From assembly GCA_903916195.1 (NCBI GenBank), contig CAIWVP010000142.1, forward strand, positions 1-40,925: 40,925 nt of DNA, given 5' to 3'. The position numbers and the translations under genes were made by a program. Origin of the DNA: an uncultured Verrucomicrobiota bacterium (lineage in GTDB: Bacteria; Verrucomicrobiota; Verrucomicrobiia; Limisphaerales; UBA9464). Under the pieces are notes generated by a model. The model was not told where the DNA came from and did not search any database. It saw nothing but the letters and a program-made list of their open reading frames with translations. This document shows positions 1 through 40,925 of the stretch, one piece after another; the first letter of the stretch is position 1, and every line of letters begins with the position of its first letter.

Positions 1-87
1 CTGAGCGGGTCGTGGTCGTCGTGACGCTGCCGGAGAGCGCGATCCGGACTGGCCGGCAGACCTAGCGGGAGGGCGAATCGGACAGCC
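1..87. repeat. Spacer block of the dispersed palindromic repeat array (copy 1)
   Basis: This block is nearly identical to 40774-40858, with about 11 mismatches over 87 bases by eye. In both places it sits directly upstream of a palindromic core (88-218 and 40859 onward). No credible reading frame occupies it. It looks like the spacer of a tandem array with a period of about 238 bp, as judged from core starts at 40621 and 40859. Confidence 0.8.
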
Positions 88-218
88 GTAGCGCAGGTTT
101 GTAACCTGCTGTATCGCCGAGTTGCACTCGGCAGGGCTGCGCCGATCTCACCCGTCCACTTGCCACAGCGCCTGCGGATTCCAAATCCGCGATACAGCGG
201 AGTGCAACTCTGCGCTAC
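88..218. repeat. Composite palindromic repeat, family A, copy 1
   Basis: The element begins GTAGCGCAG and ends CTGCGCTAC, so it is a large imperfect inverted repeat. Each arm holds two small hairpins separated by CTGTATCGC (left arm) or its complement GCGATACAG (right arm). The hairpins read GGTTTGTAACC, GAGTTGCACTC, GGATTCCAAATCC and GAGTGCAACTC. The right outer flank CCGCCACTTCCGATCGC matches the flank of copy 2. It lies just past the 3' end of the minus-strand isomerase gene. No transposase is nearby, so this is a non-coding REP/MITE-like element. Confidence 0.85.
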
Positions 219-277
219 ATCCGCCACGGTGCCCGCCACTTCCGATCGCAGGCCGTCCCAGAGCATGGCTCCCGCGC

Positions 278-3518: not shown

Positions 3519-3735
3519 ACATCGCGGAGCGATGTCAGCCATTAGCCGGGGGGCGAGGAGCGCAGCGACGACACCCCGGGATACCGTGGGCCAGCGCCAC
3601 GACCCCGGCAGGGGTCGCAGATACGCCAACCGGTTCGTGGTCTGGCACCCTTTGCAGGGTGCTTGTCCTTTCGCCTGTCACCGGGGGTGTCGCTGGCGCT
3701 CAACCCCCGGCTAATGGCTGGCAAGCCTCCGGCTT
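3519..3735. repeat. Composite palindromic repeat, family C
   Basis: A nested inverted repeat. The outer arms are CAGCCATTAGCCGGGGG (3536-3552) and CCCCCGGCTAATGGCTG (3704-3720). Inner arms AGCGCAGCGACGACACCCC and GGGGTGTCGCTGGCGCT pair imperfectly. Between them are the small hairpins GACCCCGGCAGGGGTC and GCACCCTTTGCAGGGTGC. ACATCGCGGAGCGATGT (3519-3535) precedes the left arm and GCAAGCCTCCGGCTTGC follows the right arm. It sits in the 506-bp space between the divergent DUF5069 and YtrA-type genes and holds no credible gene. Confidence 0.83.
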
Positions 3736-22549: not shown

Positions 22550-23407
22550 TCAGACCGGTGCCACCGAGGCCATCTCGCGGACGCGTTCCAGGATGACATC
22601 GGAGACATGCGGCTCGCCGCCGATGCTCGGCGAGTACCACACCCGCTTGCCGTGCTTGAGGCCGGGGTTCGGCCAGGTCGGCCGGCCGGACTTGAAGCGC
22701 GCCTGCACCTCCGCCTCCGGTTCGCCGAGCATCACCGGGATGTCCTCGTGGCTGTGCAGCCCGTCGCTGATGAAGAACGGCACCACCACGAGGTCGTCCG
22801 TCCGGGCCATCGCGTAGCAATCGCCGATGCGCGGGTCCTCCTCCATGAAGAGCGCGTGCGTCGCCGCATAGAGCCCGCGGCCGGCGATGAGCGCGACCTG
22901 GTGCTCGATGGCTTTGCGGGAGTTCTCGTTGTTGCCGGTGCCGTGGCCGGCGATGAAGAGCGTCGTCCGGTCCGGCCGCGGGCGGCTGCCGTCCAGCGCC
23001 GGATGCTGCTCCACCACGTCGCGGGCGCGGGCGAGGACCACCTCGGTCATGCTCGCGTGGGTACCGACCGGTCCGCAGTAGTGCAGCGTCTGCGCACCCC
23101 GCCGTTGGACACGCGGGAAACCCGTCTCGCCGTTCCTGCAGAAGCCGAGCTCGCGCGGGATGACCTGCTCGGTGAAGTAGCCTTCGCTGATGAACAGCGG
23201 CACGACGAAGACCCGCGGCGTGGTCGCGCCGCGCAAGACGCCGGCGAAGGTCGGATGCTCCTTCCAGAAGCACTCGACCACCTTTGCGAAGACGCCGCGG
23301 CGGCGAAGTTCATCGGCGTGCTGGAAGGTCGGCGCCGCCGAATCGGCGTTCAGCGTCGAACCATGGCCCGCGAGCACGAGCGTGGCGTCGGAGAGGTCGG
23401 TGTCCAT
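22550..23407 (-). CDS. CbiX/SirB-like sirohydrochlorin chelatase family protein
   Basis: The protein has 285 residues, starting at the ATG at 23407 (MDTDLSDATLVLAGHGS). It has two CbiX-like halves. The first begins with LVLAGHGSTLNADSAAPTF and VFVVPLFISEGYFTEQVIP; the second with LFIAGHGTGNNENSRKAIEH and VVVPFFISDGLHSHEDIP. GHG histidines in both halves are the expected metal-site positions. CbiX/SirB enzymes insert Co2+ or Fe2+ into sirohydrochlorin. A uroporphyrinogen methyltransferase fusion is encoded 1.4 kb away, which supports a siroheme or cobalamin role. A -35/-10-like pair (TTGCAT, 17 bp, ATCCTT at 23445-23417) precedes the start. Confidence 0.87.
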   Translation of the reverse strand: MDTDLSDATLVLAGHGSTLNADSAAPTFQHADELRRRGVFAKVVECFWKEHPTFAGVLRGATTPRVFVVPLFISEGYFTEQVIPRELGFCRNGETGFPRVQRRGAQTLHYCGPVGTHASMTEVVLARARDVVEQHPALDGSRPRPDRTTLFIAGHGTGNNENSRKAIEHQVALIAGRGLYAATHALFMEEDPRIGDCYAMARTDDLVVVPFFISDGLHSHEDIPVMLGEPEAEVQARFKSGRPTWPNPGLKHGKRVWYSPSIGGEPHVSDVILERVREMASVAPV

Positions 23408-23467
23408 CGGAGCGCAAAGGATGGTCCGGAACGGCGGCGATGCAAGGCGAGCCCGGAAGGAGGGTGT

Positions 23468-23649
23468 GATCGGAAGTGGCGGCCGCTCGTGGCGCAGGTT
23501 TGCAACCTGCTGTATCGCCGAGTTGCACTCGGCAGAGCGTCGGCAAGGCCCGACCACTTGCCCGCCACAGCGCCTGCGGATCCCAGATCCGCGATACAGC
23601 CGAGTGCACCTCGGCGCTACTTCCGCCGCCGTGCCCGCCACTTCTGATC
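23468..23649. repeat. Composite palindromic repeat, family A, copy 2
   Basis: This is the most complete copy. The outer arms are GATCGGAAGTGGCGG and CCGCCACTTCTGATC-like sequence, and the core is 23489-23620. The hairpins read GGTTTGCAACC, GAGTTGCACTC, GGATCCCAGATCC and CGAGTGCACCTCG, separated by CTGTATCGC and GCGATACAG. It fills most of the 317-bp gap between the chelatase and kinase genes. The rest (23650-23724) has nothing recognisable. Confidence 0.88.
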
Positions 23650-23724
23650 GCACCCCAAGAGAGCAGGCACCGGGACCCGGATCAAGGGAACGAGGAAGAA
23701 GAGGAAGACCCGCTCTTCAAGACA

Positions 23725-24741
23725 TCAACGCCGCCACCAGCTCTTGCCTTCGCGGGCCGGGGACCCGGCGGCGGCGGCCGGCTGGCCGGTGAGTTGCCGG
23801 ATGAGCAGCTGGCTGCGCGCGGATTCGAGCGCCATGCGGAACTCGTCGTAGCTTCCGTGGCGTTCGGACGGGTTCTTCGCCATCGCCTTCGAGAGCGCCT
23901 CGCTGGTCGGCACCGAGATGTCGGGAACGGCGACGTGGGCCGGCGTCAGCGGCGTGTGGATCTGCGCCGCGACCACCTCGTCCACCGTGGCCGCCTCGAA
24001 CGGCACATGTCCCACGAGCGCGTGGTAGAGCGTTCCGGCGAGCGAGTACATGTCGCTCAGGAAGCTCTCGCCGGTCTGCTGCACGCGTTCGGGCGCGATG
24101 TAGTACGGGGTGCCGAACACCGGGGCGTAGTTGTCCTTCTCGGCATCGGTCTTCCGCGCGAGGCCGAAGTCGACCAGCTTGGGCTCGCCGTCGGAGTTGA
24201 AGAGGATGTTGCCCGGCTTGATGTCGAGATGGAGCAGGCCGTGCTTGAGCGCCGTCGCCAGCGCGCTGGTGACCTTGATGCCCACGTCGAGCACCTCCAG
24301 CTCCGGCACGCGTTTGGACGTCTCGATCCTCCCGTCGAGGTCCCCGGCGTCGGCGAGCTCCATCACCAGATACTTGTGCGGGCCTTCCTGGTCGAAGGTG
24401 TAGATGTGGATGATGTTCGTGTGGTTCAGCGCGGCGCAGGCGCGGGCCTCGGCGGCGAAGGCGTCCACGGAATCCTCGTCCTGGGCGATCTCCACCTTCA
24501 TCAGTTTCACCGCCACGATGCGGCCGAGCGTGGTGTCATAGGCGTTGTAGACCGTGCCCATGCCGCCCGAGGCGATCTCGGAGCGCAGCTCGAACTGCCG
24601 CAGCCGCATGGGCATCATGATGGGCACGGCGCACTTCGTGCACGGCGTCTTCTCCAGCGGCGCGAGGTCGCCGGAGATGAACACCTTGGCCCCGCAGTGC
24701 GGGCAGGCGACGAGCTTGAGCGAGTTGCGGGCGGGCTGCAT
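23725..24741 (-). CDS. Zinc-ribbon serine/threonine protein kinase
   Basis: The protein has 338 residues, starting at the ATG at 24741 (MQPARNSLKL). An N-terminal zinc ribbon has CPHC (13-16) and CTKC (34-37). The kinase domain follows: glycine loop ASGGMGTVY (57-65), VAVK lysine K79, alpha-C glutamate E98, catalytic loop HLDIKPGNIL (171-180, D173), DFG at 191-193, and IAPERVQQTGESFLSDMYSL. The catalytic loop has HLD where most Hanks-type kinases have HRD, so activation-loop phosphorylation may not control it. There is no membrane segment or sensor domain; the zinc ribbon is probably its input or docking module. It is divergent from the CobA-HemD gene. Confidence 0.93.
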   Translation of the reverse strand: MQPARNSLKLVACPHCGAKVFISGDLAPLEKTPCTKCAVPIMMPMRLRQFELRSEIASGGMGTVYNAYDTTLGRIVAVKLMKVEIAQDEDSVDAFAAEARACAALNHTNIIHIYTFDQEGPHKYLVMELADAGDLDGRIETSKRVPELEVLDVGIKVTSALATALKHGLLHLDIKPGNILFNSDGEPKLVDFGLARKTDAEKDNYAPVFGTPYYIAPERVQQTGESFLSDMYSLAGTLYHALVGHVPFEAATVDEVVAAQIHTPLTPAHVAVPDISVPTSEALSKAMAKNPSERHGSYDEFRMALESARSQLLIRQLTGQPAAAAGSPAREGKSWWRR

Positions 24742-24758
24742 CTTTGAAGTGGCGCGGG

Positions 24759-24786
24759 AATGTAGTCGGGGGGACGCGGGGGACAA
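24759..24786 (-). promoter_or_regulatory. Putative promoter of the protein kinase gene
   Basis: On the minus strand TTGTCC (24786-24781) and TACATT (24764-24759) are separated by 16 bp, ending 17 bp before the ATG at 24741. The region is short and divergent with the CobA-HemD promoter. Confidence 0.35.
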
Positions 24787-24813
24787 GCACACGTTGCTCC
24801 GCTGGAAGAAAGT

Positions 24814-24842
24814 TTGAGCCCGCACGATCATCCTCCTACGGT
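24814..24842 (+). promoter_or_regulatory. Putative leaderless promoter of the CobA-HemD gene
   Basis: TTGAGC (24814-24819) and TACGGT (24837-24842) are separated by 17 bp. The -10 element ends 9 bp before the ATG at 24852, matching the other short-leader genes in the window. Confidence 0.4.
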
Positions 24843-32901: not shown

Positions 32902-32984
32902 GCGCGGAGTGAACAGCGAAGGCGCGACGACGCAAAGGACGAGGATGGGGCGAAGCAGATCATCCTCTCCCGAGCGTTGCCTCA

Positions 32985-33104
32985 CGCCTTCGCGCCTTCG
33001 CGCCTTCACGCCTTCACACCTTCACGCCTTCACGCCTTCACGCCTTCACGCCTTCACGCCTTCACGCCTTCACGCCTTCACGCCTTCACGCCTTCACGCC
33101 TTCA
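32985..33104. repeat. 8-bp tandem repeat, 15 units (CGCCTTCA)
   Basis: Fifteen head-to-tail copies of an 8-bp unit cover exactly 120 bp. The first two units are CGCCTTCG, most others CGCCTTCA, and the fifth CACCTTCA. On the minus strand the unit reads TGAAGGCG. Eight is not a multiple of three, but the array is between stop and start codons, so copy-number change would not frameshift a gene. It lies between tsaB and the YkgJ gene. There are no spacers, so it is not CRISPR. Confidence 0.95.
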
Positions 33105-33118
33105 TACCCTTCCCCGGG

Positions 33119-33748
33119 TCAGACCACCCGCGCCGGCGGCGCCTTCACGAAGGCCGCTTCCCGCAGATAGACCGGCGCCAAGCTCTCGGCCGCGACGAAC
33201 TCACCACGCTCCTCGGCGGCTCGCGCGATGTCCGCAGCGGCGGGGAACAGCTCGGAACCGCCGCCCAGCATGCGCAGGACCTCGGGGCCGGCGACCGCTT
33301 CCCCCGCGGCGATCCGCGCCTTCAACGCGTCGCCCGCAGCCAACCGGATCGGCTCCGTCAGGCGGCCGTGTTCCGCGACGGCGACCGCGAACTCGCCGCG
33401 CTGCGCGTCCGCGGCAAGCAGCACCGGACCGGACGCCAGAGCCTTCGCCGCCACGGCCATCGCGTCGAAACTGCTCACCGACGCCACCTTGGCTCCGTTC
33501 GCCAATTGCCAGCCCTGCGCGACCGAGATCGCCAGGCGGACCCCGGTGTAGCTGCCCGGCCCGATGCCGACGGCGATGCATCCCACGGCGTCGCGGCCGA
33601 CACCGGCGCGGGCCAGGACGTCCGCGATCATCGCGAACACCGGTGTCGTGCGCGTGGCCTGATGGACGACTTCGGCCAGGACCGCGCCGTCGCGCACGAC
33701 GGCCACGCTCCTGCGGTCGGTGGAGAACTCAATCGCCAACGTGGTCAT
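33119..33748 (-). CDS. tsaB: tRNA t6A synthesis protein TsaB
   Basis: The protein has 209 residues, starting at the ATG at 33748 (MTTLAIEFSTDRRSVAVV). The ASKHA fold is shown by the N-terminal strand and by the family hallmark GIGPGSYTGVRLAISVAQG. It lacks the metal-binding HxxxH of TsaD. TsaB partners TsaD and TsaE to attach threonylcarbamoyl to A37 of ANN-decoding tRNAs. It overlaps the 3' end of tsaE by 20 bp. An alternative ATG at 33772 would lengthen it by 8 residues. Confidence 0.92.
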   Translation of the reverse strand: MTTLAIEFSTDRRSVAVVRDGAVLAEVVHQATRTTPVFAMIADVLARAGVGRDAVGCIAVGIGPGSYTGVRLAISVAQGWQLANGAKVASVSSFDAMAVAAKALASGPVLLAADAQRGEFAVAVAEHGRLTEPIRLAAGDALKARIAAGEAVAGPEVLRMLGGGSELFPAAADIARAAEERGEFVAAESLAPVYLREAAFVKAPPARVV

Positions 33749-40543: not shown

Positions 40544-40595
40544 AAAGGGGGAAGCCCGTCCGCTCCGACCGCCGTGCGGGGACCACCCCGGGAGA

Positions 40596-40764
40596 GTGCG
40601 ACCGGAAGTGGCGGGCGGACGTAGCGCAGGTTTTCAACCTGCTGTATCGCCGAGTTGCACTCGGCAGGGCGTCGGCAAGGCCAAGCCGCTTACCTGTCGG
40701 AGCGCCTGCGGATTCCAGATCCGCGATACGGCAGAGTCCGACTCTGCGCTACGTCCGATCGCAC
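40596..40764. repeat. Composite palindromic repeat, family A, copy 3
   Basis: The core is 40621-40752, with outer arms GTGCGACCGGAAGTGGC and GATCGCAC. The hairpins read GGTTTTCAACC, GAGTTGCACTC, GGATTCCAGATCC and CAGAGTCCGACTCTG, in the same order as in copies 1 and 2. The last hairpin differs from other copies on both sides of its stem, so pairing is kept. It lies past the 3' end of the YyaL-like gene. Confidence 0.88.
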
Positions 40765-40773
40765 CCGCGTACT

Positions 40774-40858
40774 GAGCGGGTCACGGTCGTCGTGACGCTG
40801 CCGGAGAGAGCGATTTGGACTGGCGGGCAGACATAGCGGGAGGGCGTATCGGGCATAC
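40774..40858. repeat. Spacer block of the dispersed palindromic repeat array (copy 2)
   Basis: It matches positions 1-87 of the window and begins ten bases after copy 3 of the palindrome ends, so block and palindrome alternate in a tandem array. Confidence 0.8.
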
Positions 40859-40925
40859 GTAGCGCAGATTTTTAATCTGCTGTGTCGCCGCGTTGCACTC
40901 GGCAGGGCGTCGGCAAGGCCAAGCC
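40859..40925. repeat. Composite palindromic repeat, family A, copy 4 (cut by the window end)
   Basis: The left arm is complete: GTAGCGCAG, hairpin GATTTTTAATC, CTGTGTCGC, hairpin GCGTTGCACTC. The sequence then ends. The first hairpin replaces a G-C pair with A-T on both sides relative to copy 1. Confidence 0.85.

Follow-up and report, generated by a model that had tools for sequence, protein, structure and literature searches.

A probable chimeric mobile element from an uncultured Verrucomicrobiota bacterium: a GTAG-class REPIN core framed by terminal inverted repeats like those of a DDE-type MITE

The stretch of DNA analyzed here (the window; 40,925 nucleotides) is an entire contig, C142, of a 4.39-Mb genome assembly (G000; 211 contigs) from an uncultured Verrucomicrobiota bacterium. 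The element under study lies between a Ser/Thr-kinase gene and a CbiX-like frame; the coordinates listed for that frame extend into the element, so the frame's true start is probably further in. A previous sequence-only reading had reported four copies of a palindrome in the window that share fixed boundary words. All four were found, with the common boundary words, at slightly adjusted coordinates (Table 1); the studied element is copy 2. Copy 1, which has an array spacer ahead of it, and copies 3 and 4, which are 238 nt apart, are members of tandem arrays at the two contig ends. Since the contig both starts and stops within 238-nt REPIN arrays (1-254 and 40594-40925), the assembly probably broke on these repeats. 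Two other repeats were noted in the window: an 8-bp tandem repeat at 32982-33120 (ACGCCTTC, ~16 units) and an inverted repeat at 3525-3557 and 3699-3731 (33-nt arms, 82% complementary, 141 nt apart), which may represent another palindromic repeat family. A search for tRNA genes returned none.

Table 1. Positions in the window of the studied element, its relatives, and its gene neighbors
Feature	Position	Strand	Description
CbiX-like frame	22550-23653	-	neighbor of copy 2; listed frame extends into element
Copy 2, whole mobile unit (core with TIRs)	23462..23655	.	194 bp; basis: matching site empty in relative G402, 340/340 nt aligned, 93%
Left TIR of MITE shell	23462..23482	+	GGGTGTGATCGGAAGTGGCGG; consensus TIR with 1 mismatch; 27 nt out from GTAG foot, a spacing found for 26 arms in the genome
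Copy 2, REPIN core	23489..23620	.	two inverted double-hairpin arms and 42-nt center
Left arm	23489..23533	+	GTGGC foot, hairpin 1 (GCAGGTT-TGC-AACCTGC), linker TGTATC, hairpin 2 (GCCGAGT-TGC-ACTCGGC); basis: sequence and covariation over 262 arms
Right arm, reverse complement	23576..23620	-	GTAGC foot, hairpin 1, linker TGTATC, hairpin 2 (GCGGATC-TGG-GATCCGC); basis: sequence and covariation
Right TIR of MITE shell	23635..23655	-	GGGTGCGATCAGAAGTGGCGG on - strand; 1 mismatch; 35 nt out from GTAG foot, a spacing found for 21 arms
Ser/Thr-kinase gene	23725-24831	-	neighbor of copy 2
Array spacer	1..87	.	1-137 is 88% identical to 40772-40908 (D5 repeat)
Copy 1, REPIN core	88..218	.	last unit of tandem array cut by contig start
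Copy 1, right TIR	233-253		
Copy 3, left TIR	40594..40614	+	2 mismatches
Copy 3, REPIN core	40621..40752	.	
Array spacer	40753..40858	.	holds degenerate inner TIRs; period 238 nt
Copy 4	40859..40925	+	left part of REPIN core, cut by contig end

Each arm of the core opens with GTAGC (GTGGC in the left arm of the window copy), followed by a 7-bp stem, and consists of two head-to-tail hairpins, one with the GTAG foot and one with a GTAT-like second foot. The arms of the window copy, at 23489 (+) and 23591-23620 (-), are 102 nt apart, as in most type-I copies. The sequence-only reading had described the right arm, once reverse complemented, as a diverged left arm, and this relationship is borne out; in copy 3, for instance, 58 nt of the two arms are 72% complementary. 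The same reading had held that a scarcity of copies genome-wide would speak against a mobile element, but the hairpin pattern GTAGCGCAGNNTNNNANNCTGC gave 75 exact matches dispersed through G000, compared to 0 for the reversed control. Upon fetching the places of these matches, 39 complete inverted pairs were obtained, with feet outward and a nearly fixed arm offset of 101-105 nt. These pairs comprise three subtypes, in which the boundary words are common while the hairpin sequences and center differ: type I includes the window copies, type II the copies with GACTGGCAGTC words, and type III the copies on contigs C176, C90, and C93. By these properties, the core belongs to the GTAG-class REPINs, the kind of substrate used by RAYT (HUH/Y1) enzymes. 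No Rfam family matched at the gathering score. Single-hairpin forms of the element, 89 bp in length, were observed on C54, and mixed copies on C158.

The sequence-only reading had further claimed that differences between copies keep the stems paired. Its first example, GGTT/AACC versus GATT/AATC, holds as a G-C/A-T double change that divides 26 type-I copies into 22 and 4. Its second, the last hairpin of copy 3 versus that of copy 2, is a genuine stem change but is not fully compensated, as the innermost position of copy 2 is unpaired (G.A, where others have T-A). For the covariation test that had been proposed, 262 arms from 16 genomes were picked by foot and linker alone, with no pairing demanded, and the analysis was run with shuffles and slid-structure controls. 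Stem covariation was strong: variable stem pairs were formed in 91-97% of the arms, compared to 46-82% when the 3' bases were shuffled within each genome, and several stem positions displayed three or four Watson-Crick types. Among 19 type-I copies, 11 cells were changed on both sides (mean in shuffles, 3.2; none of 500 shuffles reached this count), a signal that comes from three pairs only and agrees in direction with the 262-arm result. Divergence from the consensus was 3.4% in stems, 14.7% in loops, and 16.2% in the center. As to uncompensated stem substitutions, which had been named as evidence against a structured element, the outcome, like the copy number, favors such an element. Between subtypes, stem changes are mostly compensated; within one subtype, however, the few private changes are mostly not, with 7 broken and 3 paired (7/10 uncompensated) in a type-I set whose selection is biased to intact first-hairpin outer stems, the second hairpin being outside that selection. 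The compensated hairpin words are thus real and old, and the fresh single-copy changes look like decay; this pattern agrees better with wear following insertion than with ongoing selection acting on every copy.

Four Y1-type genes were found in G000, and one of these, on C176, has type III REPIN arms on both sides. The search for a RAYT/Y1 transposase with matching hairpins, suggested by the sequence-only reading, therefore has a positive result within the same genome. The C176 protein scored 25.1 bits against Pfam Y1_Tnp (PF01797; cutoff, 23) and 78.7 bits against NCBIfam REP_Tyr_transpos (cutoff, 80), and its best match in the PDB was E. coli TnpAREP (4er8; E value, 2.6e-6). Its closest homologues (57-66% identity), from other Verrucomicrobiota, have the same double-hairpin arms alongside, whereas more distant ones do not. 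In a maximum-likelihood tree of 48 proteins, for which arms were counted in the fetched stretch around each gene, at least three arms were nearby in 10 of the 13 members of one clade (support, 94/92) versus 0 of 35 other Y1 proteins. With a looser label of any arm, 8 changes were needed on the tree, compared to a shuffled mean of 14.2. Cognate RAYT genes flanked by the same repeats are accordingly present both on C176 and at clade-A RAYTs elsewhere. The double-hairpin arm seems to be a wider trait of this RAYT group, since sister RAYTs bear other two-hairpin arms with a different linker. Beside the C176 gene (L056, 336-708), tandem REPINs are repeated together with the apparent first codons of a neighboring host gene at a period of 239 nt. 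The repeats of this locus also generate spurious open reading frames with peptides such as SADLQSAVSQVCNL, and such repeat-born frames are a risk in automatic annotation. A length-measuring mechanism behind the near-constant array period (238 nt for type I and 239 nt for type III on C176) was considered, but the case is weak, with only two spacer lineages, and we do not claim it.

Looking outward from the feet, a second conserved layer was seen: GGGTGCGATCGGAAGTGGCGG on both sides of the core. This TIR is 21 bp in length, and its 16-base middle occurs 87 times in G000 within one mismatch, compared to 0 times for the control. Within 6 mismatches, the TIR was detected at 62 of 99 arms at quantized distances (reversed control, 0/99); in most copies, types I and II alike, it lies 27 nt out on one side and 35 nt out on the other, and 8 of the 62 matches are worn remnants 53-54 nt out in array spacers. 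Type III copies gave one TIR match, at 6 mismatches, and otherwise have no TIR, the RAYT-flanking copies on C176, C90, and C93 among them. Just outside the TIRs, direct repeats of ~9 bp were found. The left and right 9-mers are 45% identical versus 28% for mispaired flanks, and 9 of 53 flank pairs match at 8 or more of the 9 positions (control rate, 0.0007). The window copy itself has no recognizable target-site duplication, with at most 5/10 matches. Target duplication of constant length is a mark of DDE transposition, and HUH Y1 enzymes are not known to produce one. With TIRs at both ends and, family-wide, a target-site duplication constant at 9 bp, most copies of the core, including the window copy, are enclosed in a DDE-type MITE shell. 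The sequence-only reading had rightly listed a mobile non-autonomous element among its possibilities but overlooked these outer TIRs and duplications.

An autonomous version of the shell element was not found in the TIR surroundings (the C5 interval and long frames beside TIRs) or by PF00872. This IS256-type model, covering the one DDE family searched, gave no gene in six genomes, and among the longest open frames (≥150 amino acids) listed beside single TIRs in other genomes, none was transposase-like by eye. One candidate for an autonomous copy, C5:45900-47232, was rejected; it holds a gene that appears by eye to be biotin-synthase-like between two TIRs, and no transposase. A second multicopy MITE of 281-282 bp, with the same TIRs and a different interior, was observed in G000 and in the nearest relative, G402 (L302, L311, C54:43706-43987, and C170:9694-9974).

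For the detection of empty sites, the flanks of 16 insertions were joined with the presumed duplicate removed, and four relatives were searched. In G402 (the genome of locus L238, MAG Jr-7aug17-240), 9 of 12 informative sites were empty, with sequence continuous across the junction: that of the window copy, C142, as well as C76, C103, C107, C111, C121, C148, C186, and C198. The elements are thus precisely present or absent at orthologous sites, in the manner of MITEs. The window-copy site is clean in G402, and at the C103 and C186 sites, which were read directly, one copy of the target is present. The C3, C67, and C115 sites are occupied in G402. At C67, three REPINs in G000 correspond to one insert of single-unit size (~189 bp) in G402, and gain or loss would both fit.

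The two-hairpin arm was found in numerous Verrucomicrobiota MAGs (at least 112 stretches) and in 14 of 97 genomes of the order; the single-hairpin pattern is rare across the phylum sample. The comparison relied on draft genomes, including many MAGs, and their contig ends frequently fall within these repeats. G467, from the same genus as G000, has 24 arm matches, and neither a TIR match nor a target duplication signal was found at them. Because some of these non-TIR copies have other flanks in common, the label of free REPINs is only approximate. Conversely, the TIR occurs in G401, G391, G431, G442, and G402 with different interiors and, in several cases, perfect 9-bp duplications. Among 14 elements from the first four of these genomes, GTAG- or GTGG-footed hairpins are present at both ends in 5 and at one end or more in 9, where shuffles lead one to expect ~0 and 0.1, respectively; these elements were located via the TIR only, and near-copies within one genome are not independent. 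The cargo of the G401 shell resembles the arms beside G401's own, different RAYT. Repeated packaging of REPINs by the shell is consequently likely, judging from the enclosed hairpins and the G401 cargo, but not proven, given the dependence among near-copies and the location of elements through the TIR. No match to the 194-bp element was found in plasmid and phage collections. Two arms (L255, 2033 and 2594) are on a viral-collection contig that may be a chromosomal fragment, and one (L222, 3175) is in a MAG labeled Akkermansia muciniphila, a doubtful label.

Very probably, then, the window element is a 194-bp chimeric, non-autonomous mobile element consisting of a GTAG-class REPIN core between the TIRs of a DDE-type MITE. 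Directly observed were the two layers at constant distances from each other, the link to one clade of RAYTs, the 9-bp duplications at many copies, the empty orthologous site of the window copy, and the covariation, and the recognition marks of two different mobility systems are present on one short piece of DNA. It is improbable that the family is a plain REPIN or BIME, its core moved by RAYT only and its outer inverted repeats a preferred target or an old, immobile flanking repeat. Such a view would accommodate the RAYT flanked by the same arms in G000 and other genomes, as well as the GTAG repeats inside other palindromes reported by Di Nocera et al. (PMC3733652; e.g., GTAG-15 in A. variabilis). 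However, the 9-bp duplications sit outside the TIRs, the empty sites are without TIRs and core together, the RAYT-flanking type III copies lack the TIR, and TIR shells with unrelated cargo have 9-bp duplications of their own. For copies with a shell, the plain REPIN reading is largely refuted.

Very doubtful, too, is a MITE whose subterminal GTAG hairpins are integral to its ends and resemble REPs by convergence, with the RAYT unrelated. Although the shells of G401, G391, G431, and G442 likewise hold hairpins with a GTAG or GTGG foot in comparable subterminal places, as though such hairpins were part of the transposon, the core arm is the arm found at clade-A RAYTs, including the TGTATC linker and the two-hairpin layout; it occurs without the TIR in many Verrucomicrobiota, and the G401 cargo resembles the REP type found next to that genome's own RAYT, which is a different one. 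Strong covariation, stems roughly five times less divergent than loops and center, and the position of the window copy between a kinase gene and a CbiX-like gene could suggest that the hairpins form a structured RNA, or a regulatory array, maintained for a host function such as transcription termination, mRNA protection, or protein binding. Against this stand the lack of an Rfam match and the empty sites in a close relative, and mobility explains the spread and the direct target duplications; we consider a maintained host function scarcely credible, although individual copies may incidentally serve the host.

The chimeric element, then, joins two known kinds, REPIN and MITE, in combined form in Verrucomicrobiota. 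REPs and REPINs of the GTAG class likewise carry a GTAG foot on short hairpins whose stems change in a complementary manner. They form inverted dimers, with the GTAG ends facing out, and tandem clusters that include flanking DNA; a RAYT gene lies amid the same repeats, and copy number is high. PVC members, in O. terrae, are already on record (Di Nocera 2013, PMC3733652; Bertels and Rainey 2011, PMC3116915). Here, in contrast, an arm consists of two hairpins set head to tail and joined by a linker particular to the clade, and most G000 copies sit inside unrelated TIRs flanked by 9-bp target duplications. The element shares with MITEs of DDE insertion sequences the ~21-bp TIRs, the 9-bp target duplications, the absence of a gene, precise insertion polymorphism, and tens of copies, but its interior holds a REPIN in place of a deleted transposase gene. 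GTAG-15 dimers in Anabaena variabilis palindromes and TIR-adjoined GTAG-1 units in Pseudomonas (PMC3733652) also place REP dimers regularly in, or joined to, an unrelated outer palindrome; the portions of that paper dealing with them report neither target duplications of the outer palindrome nor empty sites, whereas the shell described here behaves as a separate transposon. E. coli TnpAREP (PDB entry 4er8) is the best solved relative of the C176 protein, with the Y1/HUH region aligned, although the latter is ~265 amino acids long with an N-terminal extension and scores just under the REP_Tyr_transpos cutoff. In the literature collection searched, no paper combined a REP-associated tyrosine transposase with a double hairpin, and none contained the TIR sequence.

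We infer that the core came earlier from RAYT-dependent REPINs, RAYT-driven movement of the core being putative, and that a DDE transposase supplied in trans would have cut and pasted TIR-core-TIR units into new sites. RAYT-type enzymes may recognize a hairpin by its GTAG foot, its loop, and the fact that its stem is paired, so that the hairpins would keep their shape rather than their stem sequence and the middle stem pairs would be free to change together, giving the appearance of interchangeable words. In published assays of TnpAREP enzymes, foot, loop, and stem pairing are important; activity is lost or lowered by mismatches and by alterations of the loop, while some stem positions tolerate exchange (PMC8266576). 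The hairpins studied here vary in the same manner. Arm-to-arm recombination would add word shuffling, tandem arrays, and single-hairpin deletion forms; the arrays (238-nt period, spacers with worn TIRs), the 89-bp forms, and the mixed copies fit recombination between arms. A "double foot" REP, produced when a dimer loses its central part, is on record (PMC6006769).

The stem covariation across multiple genomes lends in vivo support to published in vitro work, according to which RAYT enzymes attend less to stem sequence than to foot, loop, and pairing. Cores with and without a shell in the same genus offer natural controls. REPINs are considered to rely on a RAYT that is present in a single copy and passed on vertically. 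More tentatively, and at a level of confidence a little short of probable, one DDE shell may have repeatedly packaged different REPIN families in different Verrucomicrobiota, such that REPINs would spread by a second, unrelated transposition system besides, or after loss of, their own RAYT, forming a dual-system class of mini-elements whose DDE MITEs would regularly carry an HUH substrate. Copies equipped with mobility signals of a second kind would help account for the persistence of REPIN populations in genomes without that RAYT (G467 and, as far as searched, G402).
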